Assembly: GCA_022843405.1 (NCBI GenBank)
Contig: JALHNQ010000025.1
Coordinates: 1-47,397 of the forward strand
Reading direction: 5' to 3'
Source: Methylocystis sp.
Lineage (GTDB): Bacteria > Pseudomonadota > Alphaproteobacteria > Rhizobiales > Beijerinckiaceae
Length of the DNA stretch: 47,397 bases
Shown here: positions 3,801 to 47,397 of the stretch, piece by piece
Layout of the letters: each line of letters begins with the position of its first letter
How positions within the stretch are numbered: the stretch's first letter is position 1
The notes under the pieces: model-generated
What the model saw: the letters and a program-made list of their open reading frames with translations, nothing else
The model's database searches: none
Told to the model about the DNA's origin: nothing
Made by a program: the position numbers and the translations under genes

Positions 3801-4233
3801 GGGCGGCGCCAAGGCGCCGCGCGAAGGCGTGGTTTTCGTCTCGGTCAAGGACGCCGACAAGGGCCGCATCATCCCGGCGGTTCGACTGTTGAAAGAAGTC
3901 GGCTTTTCCGTCGTCGCCACGGGCGGCACGGCGCGCTATCTGGTCGAGCGGGGAATCGCCGCCCAGAAGCTGAACAAGGTCTCGGAGGGGAGGCCGCATA
4001 TCGTCGACGCGATCAAGAACGGCTCGATCGCGCTTGTTTTCAATACGACTGAGGGTGCGCAGGCGCTCGCCGACTCGCGCTCCTTGCGCCGCGCGGCGCT
4101 TCTGCATAAGGTTCCCTATTACACGACCCTGGCAGGGGCGGTCGCGGCGGCCCAGGGGATACGCGCCTATGTGTCGGGGGACCTTAAGGTCCGGGCGCTG
4201 CAGGATTATTTTCCGCCGACCGCGACCAACTGA
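895..4233 (+). CDS. carB: Carbamoyl-phosphate synthase large subunit
   Basis: This 1,112-residue protein makes carbamoyl phosphate from bicarbonate, two ATP and ammonia channelled from the small subunit CarA, feeding pyrimidine and arginine synthesis in the cytoplasm. The two homologous halves are clear: each starts with a nucleotide-binding segment ([19 protein letters not shown] near residue 12; [19 protein letters not shown] near 576). A glycine-rich ATP-grasp loop (GGTGGGIA) lies near residue 180, with the metal-site signature [18 protein letters not shown] near 304 and its second-half counterpart [16 protein letters not shown] near 879. The last 150 or so residues ([11 protein letters not shown] onward) form the MGS-like allosteric domain. 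It is slightly longer than the E. coli enzyme (1,073), as is usual in alphaproteobacteria. carA is not in the window. greA follows 158 bp downstream, a common arrangement in this class. The leader contains the terminator and repeat described separately. Confidence 0.98.
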
Positions 4234-40120: not shown

Positions 40121-40196
40121 TCCCCGATAGCTCAGCTGGTAGAGCACGCGACTGTTAATCGCTAGGTCGTAGGTTCGAGTCCTACTCGGGGAGCCA
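40121..40196 (+). tRNA. tRNA-Asn (anticodon GUU)
   Basis: A full cloverleaf: acceptor TCCCCGA (40121-40127) pairs with TCGGGGA (40186-40192), then discriminator G and encoded CCA to 40196. The anticodon loop CTGTTAA carries GTT, reading AAC/AAT. The T arm is GTAGG-TTCGAGT-CCTAC. It is intact and marks the boundary between housekeeping genes and the phage-derived block. Confidence 0.96.
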
Positions 40197-40306
40197 GCGA
40201 GCGCTATTAAGTAGCTGAAATCATTTGTCTTTCAGTAGCCGCGACGCCATCTCCATAATGTTGTGCATAACTTGGCCTCAGCCAATCCGGCCCGCAGGGG
40301 ACTGCC

Positions 40307-40618
40307 ATGTCTGAAGATGACGTGCCGAGCACGCGGGAGCGCAAAGTCCTAGAAGCTCTAATAATTGCAGACTGGGAAGCCGAAGCGAACCCCAATCCCG
40401 GTCAGGCGGGGGAAGGCACCTTCAAGGCTATGGCCGACAAGGGATGGATTGAACGACGTCGGACTCCCAACGGAATAAAGCAGGCCAGGATCACCGAGGC
40501 GGGAAGAGCAGCCCTTAAAAGGCCCATACCGGCGAAGCCAGTAAGACCGAGGCTCAAAATGCTGCGGCCCAAGCTAAAGGAACTGCCGCCAAAGATTTCG
40601 CCAAGAAAGAGGGGATAA
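40307..40618 (+). CDS. Small basic protein, possible winged-helix
   Basis: A 103-residue protein. Residues 10-70 look like a compact helix-helix-wing module (RERKVLEALIIADWEAEA ... WIERRRTPNGIKQARITEAGRAAL), while the tail is very basic and Pro-rich (KPVRPRLKMLRPKLKELPPK). It could be a DNA-binding protein of the element; no family was recognised. It is the only visible gene in the element on the plus strand and ends one base before the convergent zinc-finger gene. Confidence 0.5.
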   Translation: MSEDDVPSTRERKVLEALIIADWEAEANPNPGQAGEGTFKAMADKGWIERRRTPNGIKQARITEAGRAALKRPIPAKPVRPRLKMLRPKLKELPPKISPRKRG

Positions 40619-40619
40619 C

Positions 40620-41087
40620 TTATTCTTTGCCCCGCGCGCGGGCGCTGAACTGATTCGTCCCCCGCAGGCCCGTCTTCCTCGCCTTCGCGCGTTGGCGATG
40701 CCGTTTGCAGTTCGCCAGCCGATGCGCGCGCCGGCATGTAGCGCACAGTTTCTTGTCTTTCCGGCCGGCGCCGACGATCGGCGAAGAGCATTCAACACAT
40801 GTGAGCGCCCCGCGCGCTTCGGCGCGCCAGCCCTGACGTTCCTCGTAATCGGCGCGTCTGCGGCAAGCAACGCTGCAATATTTCTGATATGATCGTCTCG
40901 TTTCAAACGGCTTCGCACACCATGCGCACCTTTCGTCCGGCAGTTCTTCGAGCGTCATCGGCGCAGGCGCGCGAGCAGTAGGTTTGATTGCCGGCCCTCT
41001 TTGGCCGGAAGCTTTTATCGCAGACTGGACAAACGCGAGGAGGTTGTCGCTCTGACCAGGCGATGCGGTAGGCTTGATCCTTCGCAT
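40620..41087 (-). CDS. Cysteine-rich zinc-finger protein (second of pair)
   Basis: A 155-residue basic protein if started at ATG 41087 (MRRIKPTASPG), which follows GAGG at good spacing; ATG 40958 (MTLEELPDERCAWC) is an alternative that reduces overlap with the upstream gene from 185 to 56 bases. It has two treble-clef or ribbon-like groups: CAWCAKPFETRRSYQKYCSVAC, then CVECSSPIV...LCATC, ending in a highly basic tail (CKRHRQRAKARKTGLRG). The first group resembles the zinc motif in the gene upstream, so the two may derive from duplication or be joined by frameshifting. Function unknown. Confidence 0.55.
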   Translation of the reverse strand: MRRIKPTASPGQSDNLLAFVQSAIKASGQRGPAIKPTARAPAPMTLEELPDERCAWCAKPFETRRSYQKYCSVACRRRADYEERQGWRAEARGALTCVECSSPIVGAGRKDKKLCATCRRAHRLANCKRHRQRAKARKTGLRGTNQFSARARGKE

Positions 41088-41535
41088 TTCGATCCTCTTT
41101 GTCTGCGCGCCGGTTCCGATCGATCTTGTAAGCTTTGGCGCACACTGGACCGCAGAATCTGTAATTGCCTTCAGGCAACGGCGCGGCACATCGCTGGCAG
41201 CGCTCGCGCGTTCGTGGGATATGTCCGTCTTGCGTGTACTCCGGCTGCCCTTGCTGCCATGACGGGCGTCGCGCGCCGGCCTGCGCCAGTGCGGCAAGGA
41301 CGACCAGCGCCGCTTCGGCGTCCGCCTGCCCCCACCCCCACCCTTCGAAGATCAGCGCGACGCGCAGCCCATAGCGACATGGCGCTTCAAGCGCGAATTG
41401 CGTCGGCTCTGCCTCCTTCATCATCGCGGCTAACGCATCTCGAATCGCTGCGCGCCGATGCTGCGCGAGCTTGCGAACCCGTTCGGGCTTTACGGCGGAG
41501 AGCCGCAGCCTCGTAGCCGGCGAGATAGCGAGCAT
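40903..41535 (-). CDS. Cysteine-rich zinc-finger protein (first of pair)
   Basis: A 210-residue protein starting at ATG 41535, preceded by GGGGAG and nine bases after the head-closure gene. The N-terminal half (to about residue 95) is helical with no recognised family. Two Cys groups follow: CQRCAAPLPEGNYRFCGPVC near 113-132 and CPVCDKSFRPKRAGNQTYCSRAC near 169-191, each C-x2-C-x(n)-C-x3-C, likely binding one zinc each; the region between is basic (KIDRNRRADKEDRNAKD). It may bind nucleic acid during packaging or regulation (inference). Confidence 0.6.
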   Translation of the reverse strand: MLAISPATRLRLSAVKPERVRKLAQHRRAAIRDALAAMMKEAEPTQFALEAPCRYGLRVALIFEGWGWGQADAEAALVVLAALAQAGARRPSWQQGQPEYTQDGHIPRTRERCQRCAAPLPEGNYRFCGPVCAKAYKIDRNRRADKEDRNAKDQAYRIAWSERQPPRVCPVCDKSFRPKRAGNQTYCSRACADDARRTAGRKVRMVCEAV

Positions 41536-41544
41536 TAGCTCCCC

Positions 41545-41928
41545 TTATCGGATGGAGAGTTCGATTCTTAGAAGTTCGCCGTCGACATAGGGCGCGGGCC
41601 AGGCCGCCTGAACGATGCGGACGCGGCCATTGCTCGTAATGATCTTGTCGCCTTTGATCGGGATGCGCGGATCCCCGGCTGTCGCCTCGGCGAGCGCCAC
41701 GGCGCTCGGCCACTGCGCGGCGTCGATTTCGCTTGTCGAGATGACGACATGCGAATCTCCGGCCTGCAGGCCGGCGCCGCCAAGCAGTTCGGCCGGCCGG
41801 TAATCCCGGATCGAGGCGCGCAGAGCTACGCTTCTCACGGTGCCCGAGACGGTGCGCTGCAGATCGCACGGCTCGCCATATTGCGCGAGCATACGGTCGA
41901 GCGCGGCGCGGGCGGCTTCCGGCGTCAT
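41545..41928 (-). CDS. Putative phage head-tail adaptor / head-closure protein
   Basis: A 127-residue protein from ATG 41928, one base after the portal stop; the open frame upstream to 42012 overlaps the portal and is excluded. An N-terminal helix (TPEAARAALDRMLAQYG) is followed by a beta-rich body with the segment IPIKGDKIITSNGRVRIVQAAWPAPYVDGELLRIELSIR, which looks like the small beta-barrel proteins that close HK97-type heads. The assignment rests on size, position after the portal and fold impression, not on a decisive motif. Confidence 0.55.
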   Translation of the reverse strand: MTPEAARAALDRMLAQYGEPCDLQRTVSGTVRSVALRASIRDYRPAELLGGAGLQAGDSHVVISTSEIDAAQWPSAVALAEATAGDPRIPIKGDKIITSNGRVRIVQAAWPAPYVDGELLRIELSIR

Positions 41929-41929
41929 G

Positions 41930-42988
41930 TCACGACTCCCAATCGATGCGACGGAAAGCGCCGGCAACGGCGGCGGGATCAATTTGCGCTTCCTTCGCGC
42001 GCGCCATCGCATCTATGAGCGTCGACAACGCCCGCGCCGCGCCGCCACTGTCGAAGGCCTGGGTCGGACGCATGACGTCAATTTCGATGCGCCCGCCGAG
42101 CTTCGCGCTCGCCTCTTCGGCGATAAGCTCGCCGATCGGCTGGAGCGTCCACTGCGCGAGATGGCGCTGCGCCTCGCGCACAAGCGGTCCTTGCGCAGCC
42201 TTATCGAAGATCGCGGGCAGAACGCCGAATACGCCGCAGATCGCATTGCGCGCGGCTTCCATCGTTTCCAGCGACATGGACTTTTCCAAGTCCGGCGTCA
42301 CATCCTGCGGCTTCCAATCGCTCGCCGGCGCCGGCCCGCCGGCCGCCGAGACGTTGACAGACTCGCGAAGCAAGACACGGCCACGGCGTCCTCTGAAGCC
42401 GCGCCCCATCTGCTCGAGGTCGACGTCGCGCGATTCTGGAAACGGGACGATTTGCGAGCCAAGCGGCGCGTTTTCGAACACGTCGCCGAGCGCCGATTCG
42501 ACGGCCTATAGTAGGCCAGCGGTTAGCGACGCGCGGCGCAGCGGCGCCGTTCCCAGCCATGGCGCTGCGGGATCGGAACCGATGCGGATATGAAGGACTT
42601 CCGCGGCAAGCGCGGTCTGAGTTGTCCCTCCGCCGGCCTCCGATATGCTGACACGATAGGCTGAAGGAGCGCCGCCGCGGGTCCGTAGATCCCAATCGCT
42701 ACACGGCACAAGACCGTTCTCGCGGATAAGAAAGAGCGCTTCGCCGCGTAGCGCGATCGATCGCGCCAGCAACGCCATCGTACGCCGGTCGAGGACATTC
42801 GTTCCGCTTACATCCGCGATCGCGAATGCGTTCTCCCAAAGGCTGATACAGCTTTGCGCCGTTGCCGTCAGTTCGGCAACGCCGCGCCGGCCGCTGATAT
42901 ATGACTCGCGCGCGGCCATGATTTCCGCGGTAAACCCGCTCGCCGATGCGCGCTTCTCCATCTTTTGCCAGGGCCAACGCCACGCCAT
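41930..42988 (-). pseudogene. HK97-type portal protein, reading frame interrupted by one TAG
   Basis: The portal ring is the entry channel for DNA during packaging and the head-tail junction. From ATG 42988 (MAWRWPWQK), the frame runs 160 codons to TAG at 42506-42508 (PLRRASLTAGLL-stop), and the same frame then continues without further stops for 192 codons (AVESALGDVFENAPLGSQIVPFPE ... RRIDWES) to TGA at 41930. Both halves fit a phage portal: N-terminal WENAFAIADVSG and DRRTMALLARSIALRGEALFLI; C-terminal MEAARNAICGVFGVLPAIFD and AQGPLVREAQRHLAQWTLQPIGELI. Total about 351 residues. The stop is in-frame, without insertion or deletion, so it is a simple nonsense change, a base-call error or a read-through site. 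The start overlaps the connector stop by one base (TGATG). Confidence 0.85.
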
Positions 42989-43524
42989 CAGCTCACCATC
43001 CGATATGGCCTGAGCAAGTCGCCGGCGCCGCTACGTTCCATCGCTTTCGCGATGGTGCCGGCGTCGTAATCGAATGAGCCGACTCCTTCGACTGTCTCTT
43101 GGCGCAAGCCGGGATTCGCCGACTGCGCCGCGCCGGCGAAATATTCGGCGAGGCGTCTTACGGCTTCCGTCACCCGTTCGGGGACTGCACCCCCGCCGAC
43201 GTCGGCCGTGAAGCGGTAGGCGCCGCAGCCGGGCAGGACGTAGCCGCCCAGCGGCGACGGCGTTGGCGTGAACGATGCCCAGGCGTCGCCTTCCCATACT
43301 TCCGTCGCTGTGACCGTCGCCGGCGCGAGAGGCGGCGCCCATTCGCCGGGCCCTTCAACAATCCACACAACCTCGCGCTCCGCGAAGCGATAGGCGATAT
43401 AGGATTCGATGCGCTGCCAGATCATCGCGGCGTCGAGCGCCGCAGCCGCAGCGGAGAGACCGCTCGGCGCGGTGGGATAGGACGCTGGCGCCGCCTCCAC
43501 CTGTCGAATCGTCGTCGCCGTCAT
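42988..43524 (-). CDS. Phage head-tail connector (gp6-like), putative
   Basis: A 178-residue protein from ATG 43524, overlapping the protease stop (ATGA). The N-terminus is low-complexity (TATTIRQVEAAPASYPTAPSG). The C-terminal half has TPTPSPLGGYVLPGCGAYRFTADVGGG.VPERVTEAVRRLAEYFAG, reminiscent of the gp6-like connector family, in which a helical domain that docks on the portal follows a beta segment. Position between protease and portal genes agrees with a head-completion role, but the call is tentative. Confidence 0.6.
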   Translation of the reverse strand: MTATTIRQVEAAPASYPTAPSGLSAAAAALDAAMIWQRIESYIAYRFAEREVVWIVEGPGEWAPPLAPATVTATEVWEGDAWASFTPTPSPLGGYVLPGCGAYRFTADVGGGAVPERVTEAVRRLAEYFAGAAQSANPGLRQETVEGVGSFDYDAGTIAKAMERSGAGDLLRPYRMVS

Positions 43525-44054
43525 GCGCGCCACCTCGCGAGTGAACGGCGCAAGGCAGCGTCCGACGCTTCGCTTTGACGACGCGACCGCGCCTCGACAG
43601 ACGTTTGCGGATAGGCTGCGAAGCTTTGCACAATGCTGATTTCGTGAAGCTCTACGGAACGAAGTTCTCGCCTGTCACCTGTCCAGGCGTCGCCGCCTTT
43701 CGGAACGCGAAAACCAAACGATGCGCCGCCAATATCGCCGCGTTCCGCGAGCGCTAGAACGTCGCGTCCGAGCGTCGTATCGGGAACGTCGATTGCGAAA
43801 TGCAGCCCGCGCGTATCTTCCGAAAGTTTCAGCGTTCCACTTTTCGTCCGCCCGAGCACGTTCCCCTGGGCGTGGTCGACAAGCGCAAGAATGTCGCGCC
43901 CGCTCGCAAGCGACTGTGAGAATGCGCCGCGCGTAATCGTTTCCACGAAGTCGTTAATCTTCGTGTCGACGCCAAAAACGGCGGCATAGCCTTCGAGTCG
44001 GCGGGAATTGCTCCCCGCCGCGCGAAGTTCGATTTGAAGCGCGCGCCGCTCCAT
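43521..44054 (-). CDS. HK97-family prohead protease
   Basis: A 177-residue protein from ATG 44054, which overlaps the capsid stop by one base (TAATG); the open frame to 44333 is inside the capsid gene and excluded. The family signature is visible: LEGYAAVFGVDTKINDFVETITRGAF at the start, the catalytic His in LVDHAQGNVLGRT near residue 62, and the Ser in DIGGASFGFRV near 115. It cleaves the scaffolding part of the capsid protein and itself during head maturation. Its position after rather than before the capsid gene is unusual. Confidence 0.9.
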   Translation of the reverse strand: MERRALQIELRAAGSNSRRLEGYAAVFGVDTKINDFVETITRGAFSQSLASGRDILALVDHAQGNVLGRTKSGTLKLSEDTRGLHFAIDVPDTTLGRDVLALAERGDIGGASFGFRVPKGGDAWTGDRRELRSVELHEISIVQSFAAYPQTSVEARSRRQSEASDAALRRSLARWRA

Positions 44055-45307
44055 TACTGAATGCCGGTCAGAATTTCGAGTTGCGCCGGCCGCGAAACGG
44101 TCACGTCCATCGTCGCGAGAGCCGTGAGACGCAGGCCGCCGGAAGCCGCGTCGGAGTATGGATCTCTGATCAGATCGATCGCGCCCCATGTGCCGACGAA
44201 GATTGGCGGAACGCCGCCTATAGTCGTCGTGAGAAGCGCTTTCGTTGCAAGCGGCGAGCCCGTAGGAGCCGCTAGCGCATTGGACGACATGACAACATTC
44301 GACGCCGGGATGGATGCGAGCAATCGATCCCATTCCGAAACGGCCGTGCTGGTGATCAGCGTTCCGTCCATCGCGTCCCAGACTTCTGGCCTAACGAGCA
44401 ATCTGACAGCGGATGGCGAACCGGCTGCATTGGCGATCAAGAACCGCTTTACCGCACCACGGAAAGCCGCCCAAGACGCCGCAGCGGCGATGGATGTTGA
44501 CGTGATGGAGTAGGAGCCAACAAGAACGCCGGCAGGCTCGCCAGATGATCCGGCGCCGAGGAAAACCGCCTTGTCGAGAGCAACGCCGATTGCGCCATTC
44601 ATGTCCCGCCGCACGGCCTGTTCCAACGCGTCGCCGGTCTGCTTCATCGACTTGCGCGTGATTTTCATCGTGATGCCGAGCGTATTTGCCGGCGTCATCG
44701 GCTTGTCGGTCGTCGCGTAAGCGGTCGGACCGCCGACACTGCCCGTCTCGGTCGCCGCCCACGCCGCCGCAACCGCCGACGTCGTGACCGGATATTCAAC
44801 GTCGCCCGAGTCGATGTTGATCATGCTAGCGCCCATGCGGACCGCTGCGCTGTCAGCAAAAATGCGGTCGATGATTGGCGCCGTGCGCATCGGATTAGGC
44901 GTGCCCGACGCAACCGTTTCACCGACACGCTTTTCGAGCGCAGCCCACGGCACAGGGAAGCCGCGATAACCGCCCTTGGCGCGCAATTCCGAAACGATTT
45001 CGGCCGTCGCGCCGTTGAGCGCTCGGCCTTCGTCAAGCGCAAGAGCGACTTGCCACATCTCGAACTTGCCGATGAGATCGGCGTATTCGCGATCGCCGCG
45101 AGTTTCGAGTTCGCCCTTTACGTCGCGTCGTTCGGTGTCTTCCGCGATCAATGCGCCGCGCAGCCGAATTTCATTGCGCTGAAATTCCGTGTCGAGTTCG
45201 CCGATTGAACGCACTTCGTTTTCGTCGGGCGTTTCCTTCCCGACAAGGCCGGCGAGCGCCTGTCGGATTTCCGACTGACGGCGGCTGATTTTCACACTCT
45301 CAAGCAT
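44054..45307 (-). CDS. HK97-fold major capsid protein
   Basis: A 417-residue protein from ATG 45307 with GAAGGGA upstream. Residues 1 to about 115 are a charged helical delta/scaffold region (RRQSEIRQALAGLVGKETPDENEVRSI ...), normally removed by the prohead protease. The HK97 fold follows: NPMRTAPIIDRIFADSAAVRMGASMINIDSGDVEYPVTTSAVAAAWAATETG, ITMKITRKSMKQTGDALEQAV, LDKAVFLGAGSSGEPAGVL (a strong capsid motif), and the P-domain to SRPAQLEILTGIQ. It overlaps the HNH gene by 16 bp. Confidence 0.92.
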   Translation of the reverse strand: MLESVKISRRQSEIRQALAGLVGKETPDENEVRSIGELDTEFQRNEIRLRGALIAEDTERRDVKGELETRGDREYADLIGKFEMWQVALALDEGRALNGATAEIVSELRAKGGYRGFPVPWAALEKRVGETVASGTPNPMRTAPIIDRIFADSAAVRMGASMINIDSGDVEYPVTTSAVAAAWAATETGSVGGPTAYATTDKPMTPANTLGITMKITRKSMKQTGDALEQAVRRDMNGAIGVALDKAVFLGAGSSGEPAGVLVGSYSITSTSIAAAASWAAFRGAVKRFLIANAAGSPSAVRLLVRPEVWDAMDGTLITSTAVSEWDRLLASIPASNVVMSSNALAAPTGSPLATKALLTTTIGGVPPIFVGTWGAIDLIRDPYSDAASGGLRLTALATMDVTVSRPAQLEILTGIQ

Positions 45308-45612
45308 TGTTTGGTCCCTTCCATTTGAGGCCGCGCCAGCTCGGCGACGGCAGTTTTCCATGCGATTTGCACAAGGCTCGGCGCGCGGCCCATCTCTTCA
45401 TTCGTCTTTTGCGAATGACACGACTGGCAGAGAGATTGCAGATTGCCGAGGTCGTACGCGCGCTCCGGCGCGCGGCGAATCGACTCGACGTGATCGACTT
45501 CAAGCCGTCCCCGCGCGCCGCATCTGACGCAGGCGAAGCCGTCGCGCCGCAGCGCGAGCCATCGAATGCGAGCCCAGCGCGACGTGTAATAGATTTTCGC
45601 GCCCGCCTTCAT
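45292..45612 (-). CDS. Phage HNH endonuclease
   Basis: A 106-residue protein from ATG 45612, in an ATGA overlap with the terminase stop (an upstream GTG at 45618 is possible). The HNH fold is clear: zinc-binding CVRCGARGRLEVDHVESI with the catalytic His of DH, NLQSLCQSCHSQKTNEEM with the Asn, second Cys pair and final His. In HK97-type and many cos phages an HNH nuclease next to TerL assists in cleavage of concatemers. Here it lies between TerL and the capsid gene. Confidence 0.9.
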   Translation of the reverse strand: MKAGAKIYYTSRWARIRWLALRRDGFACVRCGARGRLEVDHVESIRRAPERAYDLGNLQSLCQSCHSQKTNEEMGRAPSLVQIAWKTAVAELARPQMEGTKQCLRV

Positions 45613-47111
45613 GCCCACACCGCCCGCGCAGTGCGTTGGGGGCGGCCGGCGATGCGCATTCCTTCCGCAACGGCCAGCACGGAAGCGGACGCGGCTTCGA
45701 TTCGTCCGCGGGAGCGCGCCTTCGCCAGCTTCATATTCGCCGCGGGATCACGAAGAACAACAGCGTCGGCGAACGCCGATCGCAGCAACAGCGACGGCGC
45801 CGACTTCACCTTGCCGTCTGCAACGGCGCGTTGAAACCGCGAACAATCTTCACCTCCGTCTCTGAAACCGAATCCGCGCCACATGATCGGCGCGCGAACG
45901 CCGGCTTGCTGCAACGCCTCTCCGAGTTCGCTCTGCTTGTAGCGGTCGGCGCAAAAAGCTGCGATCGGCTCGCCCTGAACATGCCGCATGACTTCCGCGA
46001 GCCATGCCGGAATAGGAACCGTCGCTTCGCCGAGCGTCGAGAGTTCACCGCGCGACTGCATTTCGACATAGCGGCCGGAAACACCGTCCGCTTCGCCCCG
46101 GTCACGCAAACCCGGCTTTGAGGGAAACCATCCGCGACATTCGAGGCGGCCGGTCTCAGGCCAGAAGAACGCCGCCGCCGACATAGAGGCGGAGCCGCCC
46201 AAGTCGGCGCCGATCACACACGGCCCTTGCCGCGGCGGAAGATCCGTCGTTTCGCATGCGAGCCATTCATCGACACGCAAAAGAACGTCGCGGTTTTCGG
46301 CGCTGACACGCTGATTGAGATTGTAGAGCCTCCACGACGTGAGCGTTGAGCCGCCGCGCGCGATGGCGCGGCGCGCCTGCGCCTGAAGCCATTCGAGACT
46401 CGCGCCGACGCCATATTCGGCGCCCGGATTCGCCTTGCGGATTTGTTCCAGATCGTCCGGCGCGCAGCCGTCGTCGGCCCGATGTTCCTGCACATAGTAG
46501 CCGTCCGGCGGATCATCGAGCATTCGCGAAAAGGCGTGCGCGTCATCTGGCGCCGAGGTCGAAATGGCGATGTAGCGTCCGCCACGCTTTCCCAAGCCGC
46601 TTATCAGCGCGTGCTCGAGCTCATCGCCGGCCTCGCGCCAATGCGCCCGCTCATCGGCGATCGCCATCGTCGGCGAAGTGCCAAGAGCAGTCCGACCATC
46701 GGCGGGCAAGATGCGCAGCACATGCGGCCCACCGGGCCCATCATATTCGCATTCGAGCCGGGGAGCCCGACGCCACGTCAAAAGCTTCTGCTTGGCGGGA
46801 GGGAGGCTTCGAGCCAAGCCGGCGGCGTAGTCCCAAATAATTCGCCCCTGGTCGCGCGTTCGAGCCGCCGCGAGGCATTCACGTTTCACTTGCGGGTCAA
46901 TCTCGCCGAGGAGATGCCCGAGGGCGATTCCGGCCGTCAGCGCCGACTTTCCGCCGCCGCGCGCGACGCTCAACGCCGCCCCTGGGACGCCATCGGCCAG
47001 GGACCCGCCGAGAAAGGACCTCTGATAGGGCGCGACTCTCAGCTTTTTGCCGGCCATAGGGCCAGTTGGCACCTGCAGCCGTTCGAGGAATTTCACTGCC
47101 CGCTCGGTCAT
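45609..47111 (-). CDS. Phage terminase large subunit
   Basis: A 500-residue packaging motor from ATG 47111 (MTERAVKFLERL), which has GAGG upstream; the frame opens at a TTG at 47225 without a ribosome site. The ATPase half has Walker A ALSVARGGGKSALTAG near residue 50 and Walker B PTMAIADERAHWRE near 145, with the SGLGKRGGRYIAISTSA coupling motif. The nuclease half shows GADLGGSASMSAAAFFW (first acidic residue of the RNase H-like site) and a later CADRYKQSELGEAL; the C-terminal HDN-type block lies near DAVVLRDPAANMKLAKARSRGRIEAASAS. It powers DNA into the prohead and cuts the genome. Confidence 0.92.
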   Translation of the reverse strand: MTERAVKFLERLQVPTGPMAGKKLRVAPYQRSFLGGSLADGVPGAALSVARGGGKSALTAGIALGHLLGEIDPQVKRECLAAARTRDQGRIIWDYAAGLARSLPPAKQKLLTWRRAPRLECEYDGPGGPHVLRILPADGRTALGTSPTMAIADERAHWREAGDELEHALISGLGKRGGRYIAISTSAPDDAHAFSRMLDDPPDGYYVQEHRADDGCAPDDLEQIRKANPGAEYGVGASLEWLQAQARRAIARGGSTLTSWRLYNLNQRVSAENRDVLLRVDEWLACETTDLPPRQGPCVIGADLGGSASMSAAAFFWPETGRLECRGWFPSKPGLRDRGEADGVSGRYVEMQSRGELSTLGEATVPIPAWLAEVMRHVQGEPIAAFCADRYKQSELGEALQQAGVRAPIMWRGFGFRDGGEDCSRFQRAVADGKVKSAPSLLLRSAFADAVVLRDPAANMKLAKARSRGRIEAASASVLAVAEGMRIAGRPQRTARAVWA

Positions 47112-47288
47112 GGGACCCTCGCGAGCGAAAATTCGAAAGTCGCAGTCCGGTTCGCGGCCACAAATCGATTCGTCGGCATTGGGACCATTGCGGCGCTCAC
47201 GTCTCGCCGCAAATCTATCGCGCAATGGCTAAAATGCAAATGTTGTCAATATGATACGATATGTTCAAAAGAGATCGATGCAGGCGAC

Positions 47289-47397
47289 TCACAGCTCGTC
47301 GAGTCGTGCAAGAACTGCTTTGTAATTGATTGTTCGTCGCTTCCGCTTCGTCGCTATCTTGTTACCAGCGATGAAAGGATAATTGACGGAACACCAT
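47289..47397 (-). CDS. C-terminal end of an unidentified element gene (partial)
   Basis: The minus-strand frame open from the right edge to TGA at 47289-47291 encodes 36 residues, including VNYPFIAGNKIATKRKR and a final helix YKAVLARLDEL. Composition is less GC-rich than the head genes. Position upstream of TerL would suit a small terminase subunit or another packaging gene, but nothing in these residues proves it. The gap 47112-47288 holds an AT-rich patch with TTGACA on the minus strand (47244-47249) and no clear -10. Confidence 0.35.
   Translation of the reverse strand, partial: WCSVNYPFIAGNKIATKRKRRTINYKAVLARLDEL

Follow-up and report, generated by a model that had tools for sequence, protein, structure and literature searches.

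A probable head-encoding, tail-less satellite at tRNA-Asn in Methylocystis and its alphaproteobacterial relatives

Capsid-forming phage-inducible chromosomal islands (cf-PICIs), reportedly described by Alqurainy et al. in 2023, provide the point of comparison for the element examined here, which lies at the right-hand end of a 47,397-nucleotide stretch of DNA from Methylocystis sp. (contig JALHNQ010000025.1), the whole of which is called the window below. They are described as encoding capsid, protease, portal, connectors, terminases and HNH and as needing a helper phage only for tails (PMC10690885), AlpA is named as the master regulator of Gram-negative PICIs (PMC11773190), and tail-stealing satellites are reported chiefly from Enterobacteriaceae, Pasteurella and Firmicutes (PMC10803314). 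The Streptomyces satellites MulchRoom and MiniFlayer also carry genes for packaging and capsid and need a helper, and MulchRoom is described as having a small head and a tail as long as that of its helper (PMC10690885). A search of a limited literature collection found no paper on capsid-forming satellites of Alphaproteobacteria.

We consider, with a probability of roughly 0.88, that the end of the window holds most of an integrated satellite of about 10.5–10.9 kb, inserted at tRNA-Asn, which has genes for a small HK97-type head of its own and for packaging but none for a tail, carries a P4-type integrase and would use the tails of a helper. The sequences show two att copies, an integrase, AlpA, head and packaging genes, a lack of recognised tail genes, and numerous relatives built in the same way. 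A first-pass annotation of the window had proposed a capsid-forming satellite of a new type; our results support the satellite part of that proposal, and the family appears better described as an alphaproteobacterial variant of capsid-forming satellites.

The element at tRNA-Asn and its continuation on a second contig

The window is a complete contig (C25) of its genome (G000; 3.34 Mb in 98 contigs), and its right edge at 47397 is therefore an assembly break. The head genes are all on the minus strand and run leftward from 47111 to 41545, on the side of the contig break from the tRNA-Asn gene that is the integration target (other genomes and loci are given below by G and L numbers):

40121..40196, plus strand: tRNA-Asn (gtt), integration target (ARAGORN)
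40181..40196, plus strand: attL, 16-bp 3' end of tRNA-Asn; exact copy at G000:C68:3412-3427 (attR)
41545..41928, minus strand: head closure candidate, 127 aa (longer ORF to 42012); phrog_161 E 0.023-0.045
41930..42481, minus strand: portal, C-terminal piece; PF04860 E 4.7e-6, below the curated cut-off
42506..42988, minus strand: portal, N-terminal piece, ending at an in-frame TAG (42506-42508)
42988..43524, minus strand: head-tail connector candidate; phrog_4931 E 0.018 (weak)
43521..44054, minus strand: prohead protease; PF04586 E 2.9e-42
44054..45307, minus strand: major capsid protein, HK97 fold; PF05065 E 4.2e-12, AlphaFold model
45292..45618, minus strand: HNH endonuclease; PF01844 E 6e-12
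45609..47111, minus strand: terminase large subunit (TerL); phrog_9 E 1.9e-59, PF20441 E 4.2e-8, PDB profile 6z6d TerL E 6.9e-52
47112..47397: stretch between the start of TerL and the contig end; continuation of the element on G000:C68

The first-pass annotation had listed the same head and packaging genes beside tRNA-Asn (TerL, HNH, capsid, protease, connector, portal and closure), and this gene list proved right, with the connector and closure assignments resting mainly on conserved position, as their own matches are weak. Relatives of the closure candidate occur at the same place (39% in G018, 57% in L180) and a connector was recognised in 78 of 158 related loci; the connector of the window lineage gave no PDB match. 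The portal is present as proposed, by its C-terminal PF04860 match, and the in-frame TAG that divides it had gone unreported. PF04860 matched the portals of 4/4 intact relatives (best E 2.9e-15), a PDB search with the portal alignment gave no match, and the portal frame is uninterrupted in G026, G031, G007, G018 and L180. A side observation from G031 (L090:5936-7489) is that HNH and capsid lie in a single 517-aa open frame, which may represent an HNH-capsid fusion or a frameshift.

In 20 listed relatives, DNA homology to the left flank of the window does not enter the element; where it extends as far as tRNA-Asn, it stops at the 3' end of that gene or a few bases from it. Close relatives share one common set of host genes downstream of tRNA-Asn, and a search of the window's own genome with this flank gave a match on contig C68. 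The first-pass annotation had suggested looking further for a second tRNA-Asn 3' end, an integrase and AlpA, and all three were located on C68, where the exact 16-bp copy of the tRNA end is followed by the post-tRNA host flank of the relatives. The next longest stretch common to the two sites is 11 bp, and in a control comparison of the 3' ends of 85 tRNAs with reversed locus sequence the longest match was 10 bases. The second copy was missed by a 24-mer pattern allowing up to 3 mismatches, because the repeat is only 16 bp, and also by one blastn search with 140 bases. tRNA-Asn is an insertion hotspot in the genus: partial copies of its 3' end lie 1-17 kb downstream in G016, G006, G010 and G021, and these copies (L059, L060, L068, L070) adjoin other islands.

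The C68 part of the element carries the following features:

C68:2-670, minus strand: rep-like ORF running off the contig, 30% identical to an HTH protein of G031
C68:667-885: small ORF
C68:882-1226, minus strand: small ORF
C68:1228-1443, minus strand: AlpA regulator; PF05930 E 6.4e-12
C68:1526-2068, minus strand: ORF
C68:2062-3288, minus strand: P4-type tyrosine integrase; PF13356, PF22022, PF00589 (Arm-DNA-bind_3, Phage_int_M, Phage_integrase)
C68:3412-3427: attR, 123 bp before the integrase start codon

Host homology restarts on C68 at 3896-3950, where the flank is 84-91% identical to the region after tRNA-Asn in relatives; the approximately 470 bases between attR and this point have no clear match in those relatives. 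The start of C68 (L086:1-60) forms an inverted repeat (hairpin), which is a likely reason for the assembly break.

A single 11,238-bp IMG/VR contig, L180, carries the corresponding genes in the order expected for the joined element: integrase (78% identical to the C68 counterpart), AlpA (68%), TerL, HNH, capsid, protease, connector, an uninterrupted portal, closure and the two zinc-finger genes ZF1 and ZF2, followed by tRNA-Asn and a relative of the pfkB-family host gene of the window. It is cut just short of the expected attR position. Comparison with L180 and L106 gave an estimate of -170 to +235 bp for the gap separating C25 and C68 and of about 10.5-10.9 kb for the whole element, a total too small to accommodate a tail module as well.

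Between the head genes and the tRNA there are only three small genes, and tail, tape-measure, lysis and integrase genes are absent there, as the first-pass annotation had stated:

40307..40618, plus strand: small hypothetical ORF, 103 aa, low coding score; no Pfam match
40620..41297, minus strand: zinc-finger ORF ZF2, 225 aa as listed; phrog_2308 E 6e-6, relatives in G031 and L180
40903..41535, minus strand: zinc-finger ORF ZF1, 210 aa; phrog_1271 E 6e-10, relatives in G031, G018 and L180

ZF1 and ZF2 (40620-41535) share about 395 bases read in different frames, each of which is conserved in L180; since the listed ZF2 overlaps ZF1, its true start is probably further in. The zinc-finger pair had been proposed as a feature of the tRNA end, which describes the window and L180. 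It was rejected as a family hallmark, ZF1 being recognised in 18 and ZF2 in 6 of the 158 loci.

A family of compact elements without recognised tail genes

The 158 loci comprise 78 from a capsid search of GTDB species genomes and the best 80 of 158 IMG/VR loci. Among recognised genes, the order TerL-HNH-capsid-protease-(connector)-portal was found in 153 loci, the exceptions being L172, L182, L212, L233 and L235, and 122 loci had TerL, HNH, capsid, protease and portal all recognised and in that order. A gene order shared this widely indicates that the head cassette is not a chance arrangement. In 45 loci (44 distinct), the 3' end of a tRNA recurs exactly beyond the head genes; the remaining loci include many contigs too short to show an att pair. 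Repeat lengths were 15-21 bases in 23 loci, 32 in one and 45-56 in 21, and the targets comprised 12 kinds of tRNA. The first-pass annotation had suggested searching other genomes for the same cassette at tRNA-Asn; the cassette lies at tRNA-Asn in L180 and at tRNA genes in many genomes. Within the genus, complete copies of about 10.4 kb in G031 and G007 lie at tRNA-Glu and tRNA-Trp.

Element sizes between att copies ranged from 9,367 to 10,972 bp (mean 10,196, s.d. 369), statistics that omit L091, a deletion form of 8,539 bp outside the main range, and that count L094 and L181, one element seen twice. This narrow range would fit a self-made head of fixed small volume. All 45 att-paired loci have an integrase and 44 have both protease and portal. 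The typical map runs from replication genes through TerL, (Hc1), HNH, capsid, protease, (connector), portal, small genes, HTH/AlpA-like and integrase to the tRNA, and primase, helicase or replication-initiator matches were found in several relatives. The integrase is at the TerL end, as in the window element, in 4 of the 45 (L091, L125, L148 and L164). None of the 80 IMG/VR contigs had direct terminal repeats, and a scan for defence genes among 150 accessory representatives returned mad1 (2 members), a single HTH model and nothing else. Two further observations concern integration: the integrase-bearing L114 and L120 have tmRNA genes as neighbours, which points to ssrA as another possible target, with no repeat found by an att search with permuted coordinates, and L107 and L127 have a second c5-type integrase upstream of the element, as if two elements stood in tandem.

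The 45 elements yielded 171 cluster representatives of 50 aa or more, among which tail and lysis genes were sought. Two PHROG pools were used, one of 150 proteins and one of 53 that combined the remaining 21 representatives with window, C68 and genus proteins; the best 25 of 90 families were examined for the first and the best 25 of 55 for the second, with individual scans in addition, and a further pool of the 81 remaining representatives of at least 85 aa was examined for the best 25 of 28 families. Among the family matches listed for the window element and the 45 complete relatives there was no tail tube, tape measure, fibre, baseplate or lysis family, in agreement with the absence of tail genes foreseen by the first-pass annotation. 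The pooled matches listed concerned replication, regulation, integration, packaging and the neck, the neck families being adaptor phrog_442, Hc1 phrog_25 and phrog_161, and Neck1/tail-completion phrog_169 and phrog_5 (one member each). Outside the head, integrase and primase/helicase classes, the longest gene in the 45 elements encodes 339 aa and partly resembles a small terminase; this maximum is too short for a usual tape measure.

Capsid relatives were patchily distributed, occurring in 5 of 39 genus genomes, 2 of 385 class-sample genomes and 5 of 398 phylum-sample genomes (the window's own genome included in each case). Alphaproteobacteria accounted for 77 of the 78 genome loci (62 Rhodobacterales, 13 Hyphomicrobiales, 2 Sphingomonadales), and the sole other locus came from a Halioglobus metagenome-assembled genome. 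Carriers include Rhodobacter capsulatus, Paracoccus denitrificans and methanotrophs.

Relationships to known systems and competing explanations

The element resembles cf-PICIs in having its own capsid, protease, portal, connectors, TerL and HNH together with an integrase and AlpA, in lacking tails and in falling within the satellite size class (PMC10690885, PMC10803314 and PMC11389934). By gene content, the window element itself has its own integrase with att repeats, AlpA, the head set, and TerL with HNH. Compared with cf-PICIs as described, the family differs in being alphaproteobacterial, in its size of about 10.2 kb against a reported 14 kb and in its permuted head order. MulchRoom and MiniFlayer differ from the family by terminal repeats, a scaffolding protein, the lack of a recognisable primase, virulent helpers and actinobacterial hosts (PMC10690885). 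Among phage records, Lacticaseibacillus phage R23.1 (OP869847, 14.5 kb) is a head-only record that in our reading looks cf-PICI-like, sharing TerL, portal, protease-capsid, adaptor, Hc1, integrase and primase with the family and showing no tail gene among the 9 of its 22 genes scanned; it differs in its order (TerS-TerL-portal-protease/capsid-adaptor-Hc1), a recognisable TerS, its size and its Gram-positive host. Klebsiella phage ST899-OXA48phi17.2 has the usual TerS-TerL-portal-protease-capsid order, unlike the family.

Individual proteins of the family resemble those of the Rhodobacter capsulatus gene transfer agent (RcGTA) and of GTA-like alphaproteobacterial siphophages (R4C, 16-3). A tblastn search of 50,697 phage records found no match to the window capsid at E 1e-5, and the AlphaFold model of this capsid (pLDDT 75.8) was closest in Foldseek to the capsid of siphophage R4C and then to that of RcGTA, with modest TM-scores of 0.41-0.44. 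TerL matched 160 phage records, all below 60% identity, with Rhizobium phage 16-3 (28%) best placed. In the Rhodobacterales lineage, the adaptor matched the RcGTA adaptor Rcc01688 (E 5.2e-17), and Hc1 matched 2kz4 (E 8.7e-6), its match to the RcGTA stopper being insignificant (0.057). RcGTA, R4C and 16-3 have tails, whereas the family has no recognised tail genes. In a TerL tree built by a quick method (105 rows, its loci limited to those with a recognised integrase and a TerL frame of at least 1300 bases), a branch (99) separated the satellites from five phage or phage-like TerLs, and the position of the integrase required at least 12 changes, 9 of them forced by starred branches; as long branches were flagged, this tree result serves only as a lead.

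Several results weigh against the satellite interpretation. The join of C25 and C68, which are separate contigs, is one that we infer, and a tandem pair of elements across them is conceivable. The stop codon in the window portal means that this copy may be inactive and unable to package, and may reflect an inactive copy or an assembly error. No small terminase was recognised in the window or C68 by Pfam and PHROG scans; among relatives, small-terminase-like proteins were one L119 protein (phrog_1482) and one pooled protein (phrog_57). The C68 rep-like protein had no significant family match beyond its similarity to the G031 HTH protein, and L180 has no match for this protein, for C68 667-885, 882-1226 and 1526-2068 or for window 40307-40618. 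The tape measure family PF10145 had no match in the window's own genome, so that this one family revealed no resident helper, and none over the cut-off in five genus genomes. The scope of the PHROG and Pfam lists for pooled proteins, the best 25 families of each, belongs here as well.

The portal stop codon could also be read as a sign of decay, the window element then being what is left of an ordinary prophage after loss of the genes for tail, lysis and regulation, and two relatives do look eroded (L091 at 8.5 kb and L160 with split genes). We regard this as very unlikely: the compact tail-less build recurs in 45 complete loci of 9.4-11.0 kb (L091 apart), protease and portal are kept in 44 of them and the order in 153 of 158 loci, and independent decay would not produce one size and one order. 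An isolated decay product was rejected on this conserved size and order, and the lack of any capsid match among the phage records also speaks against a remnant. The break between C25 and C68 leaves a place where the tail genes of a full prophage with an unusual map might lie unassembled, an explanation to which we assign a near-negligible probability, since the gap estimated from two relatives is small, L180 carries the same genes on one contig with no space for tails, and complete relatives are about 10 kb. The first-pass annotation had named tail and lysis genes past 47397 as the mark of an ordinary prophage; the part that would follow this contig end is the C68 half, which like L180 has no recognised tail genes, and an ordinary prophage was rejected.

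RcGTA-like GTAs are fixed host clusters with tail genes and are not known to have an integrase or att sites. The capsid model and the Rhodobacterales adaptor match might nevertheless suggest a domesticated particle system related to GTAs instead of a mobile satellite. This seems highly improbable given the lack of recognised tail genes, and a mobile element is indicated by the integrase and AlpA, by att pairs spread over 12 kinds of tRNA and by the patchy distribution (5 of 39 genus genomes, 2 of 385 in the class sample).

Proposed life cycle and implications

As judged from its genes, the satellite probably spreads by borrowing helper tails. Once a helper has induced the element, the integrase would excise it, with AlpA acting as regulator or excisionase, and the excised element would replicate. 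Its genome of about 10 kb would then be packaged by TerL and HNH, probably with cos-type cutting, into satellite-made heads, which would dock through the connector and closure proteins to the tails of a helper siphophage, and the particles would be released by the lysis genes of the helper.

A broader proposal, which we put forward tentatively and hold to be possible rather than probable, is that the family is an independent alphaproteobacterial tail-borrowing lineage whose head genes came from an R4C/GTA-type siphophage and whose origin was distinct from that of the cf-PICIs of enterobacteria and of Gram-positive hosts. Its head operon would have been rearranged, its members would make their own head, sized for about 10 kb, and their integrase modules would repeatedly have been exchanged between the two ends of the element. 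In the boldest form of this proposal, some members may dock on the tails of chromosomal GTAs and not on those of phages, in line with the adaptor match of one lineage to the RcGTA adaptor. The GTA_TIM marker was found in 8 of 10 carrier genomes tested and had no match in the window's own genome, so that docking on GTA tails cannot hold for all members and was rejected as a general rule.

If the satellite interpretation is true, tail-stealing satellites would extend to major environmental bacteria (Rhodobacterales, Hyphomicrobiales and Sphingomonadales). Elements this small are easily missed, as exemplified by Paracoccus denitrificans DSM 413, which carries the family locus L155, whereas the available part of a Paracoccus virome survey gives one 43.9-kb prophage and no 10-kb element for this strain (PMC6536676). 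As named culturable carriers exist, helper identity, head size and packaging would be directly testable.

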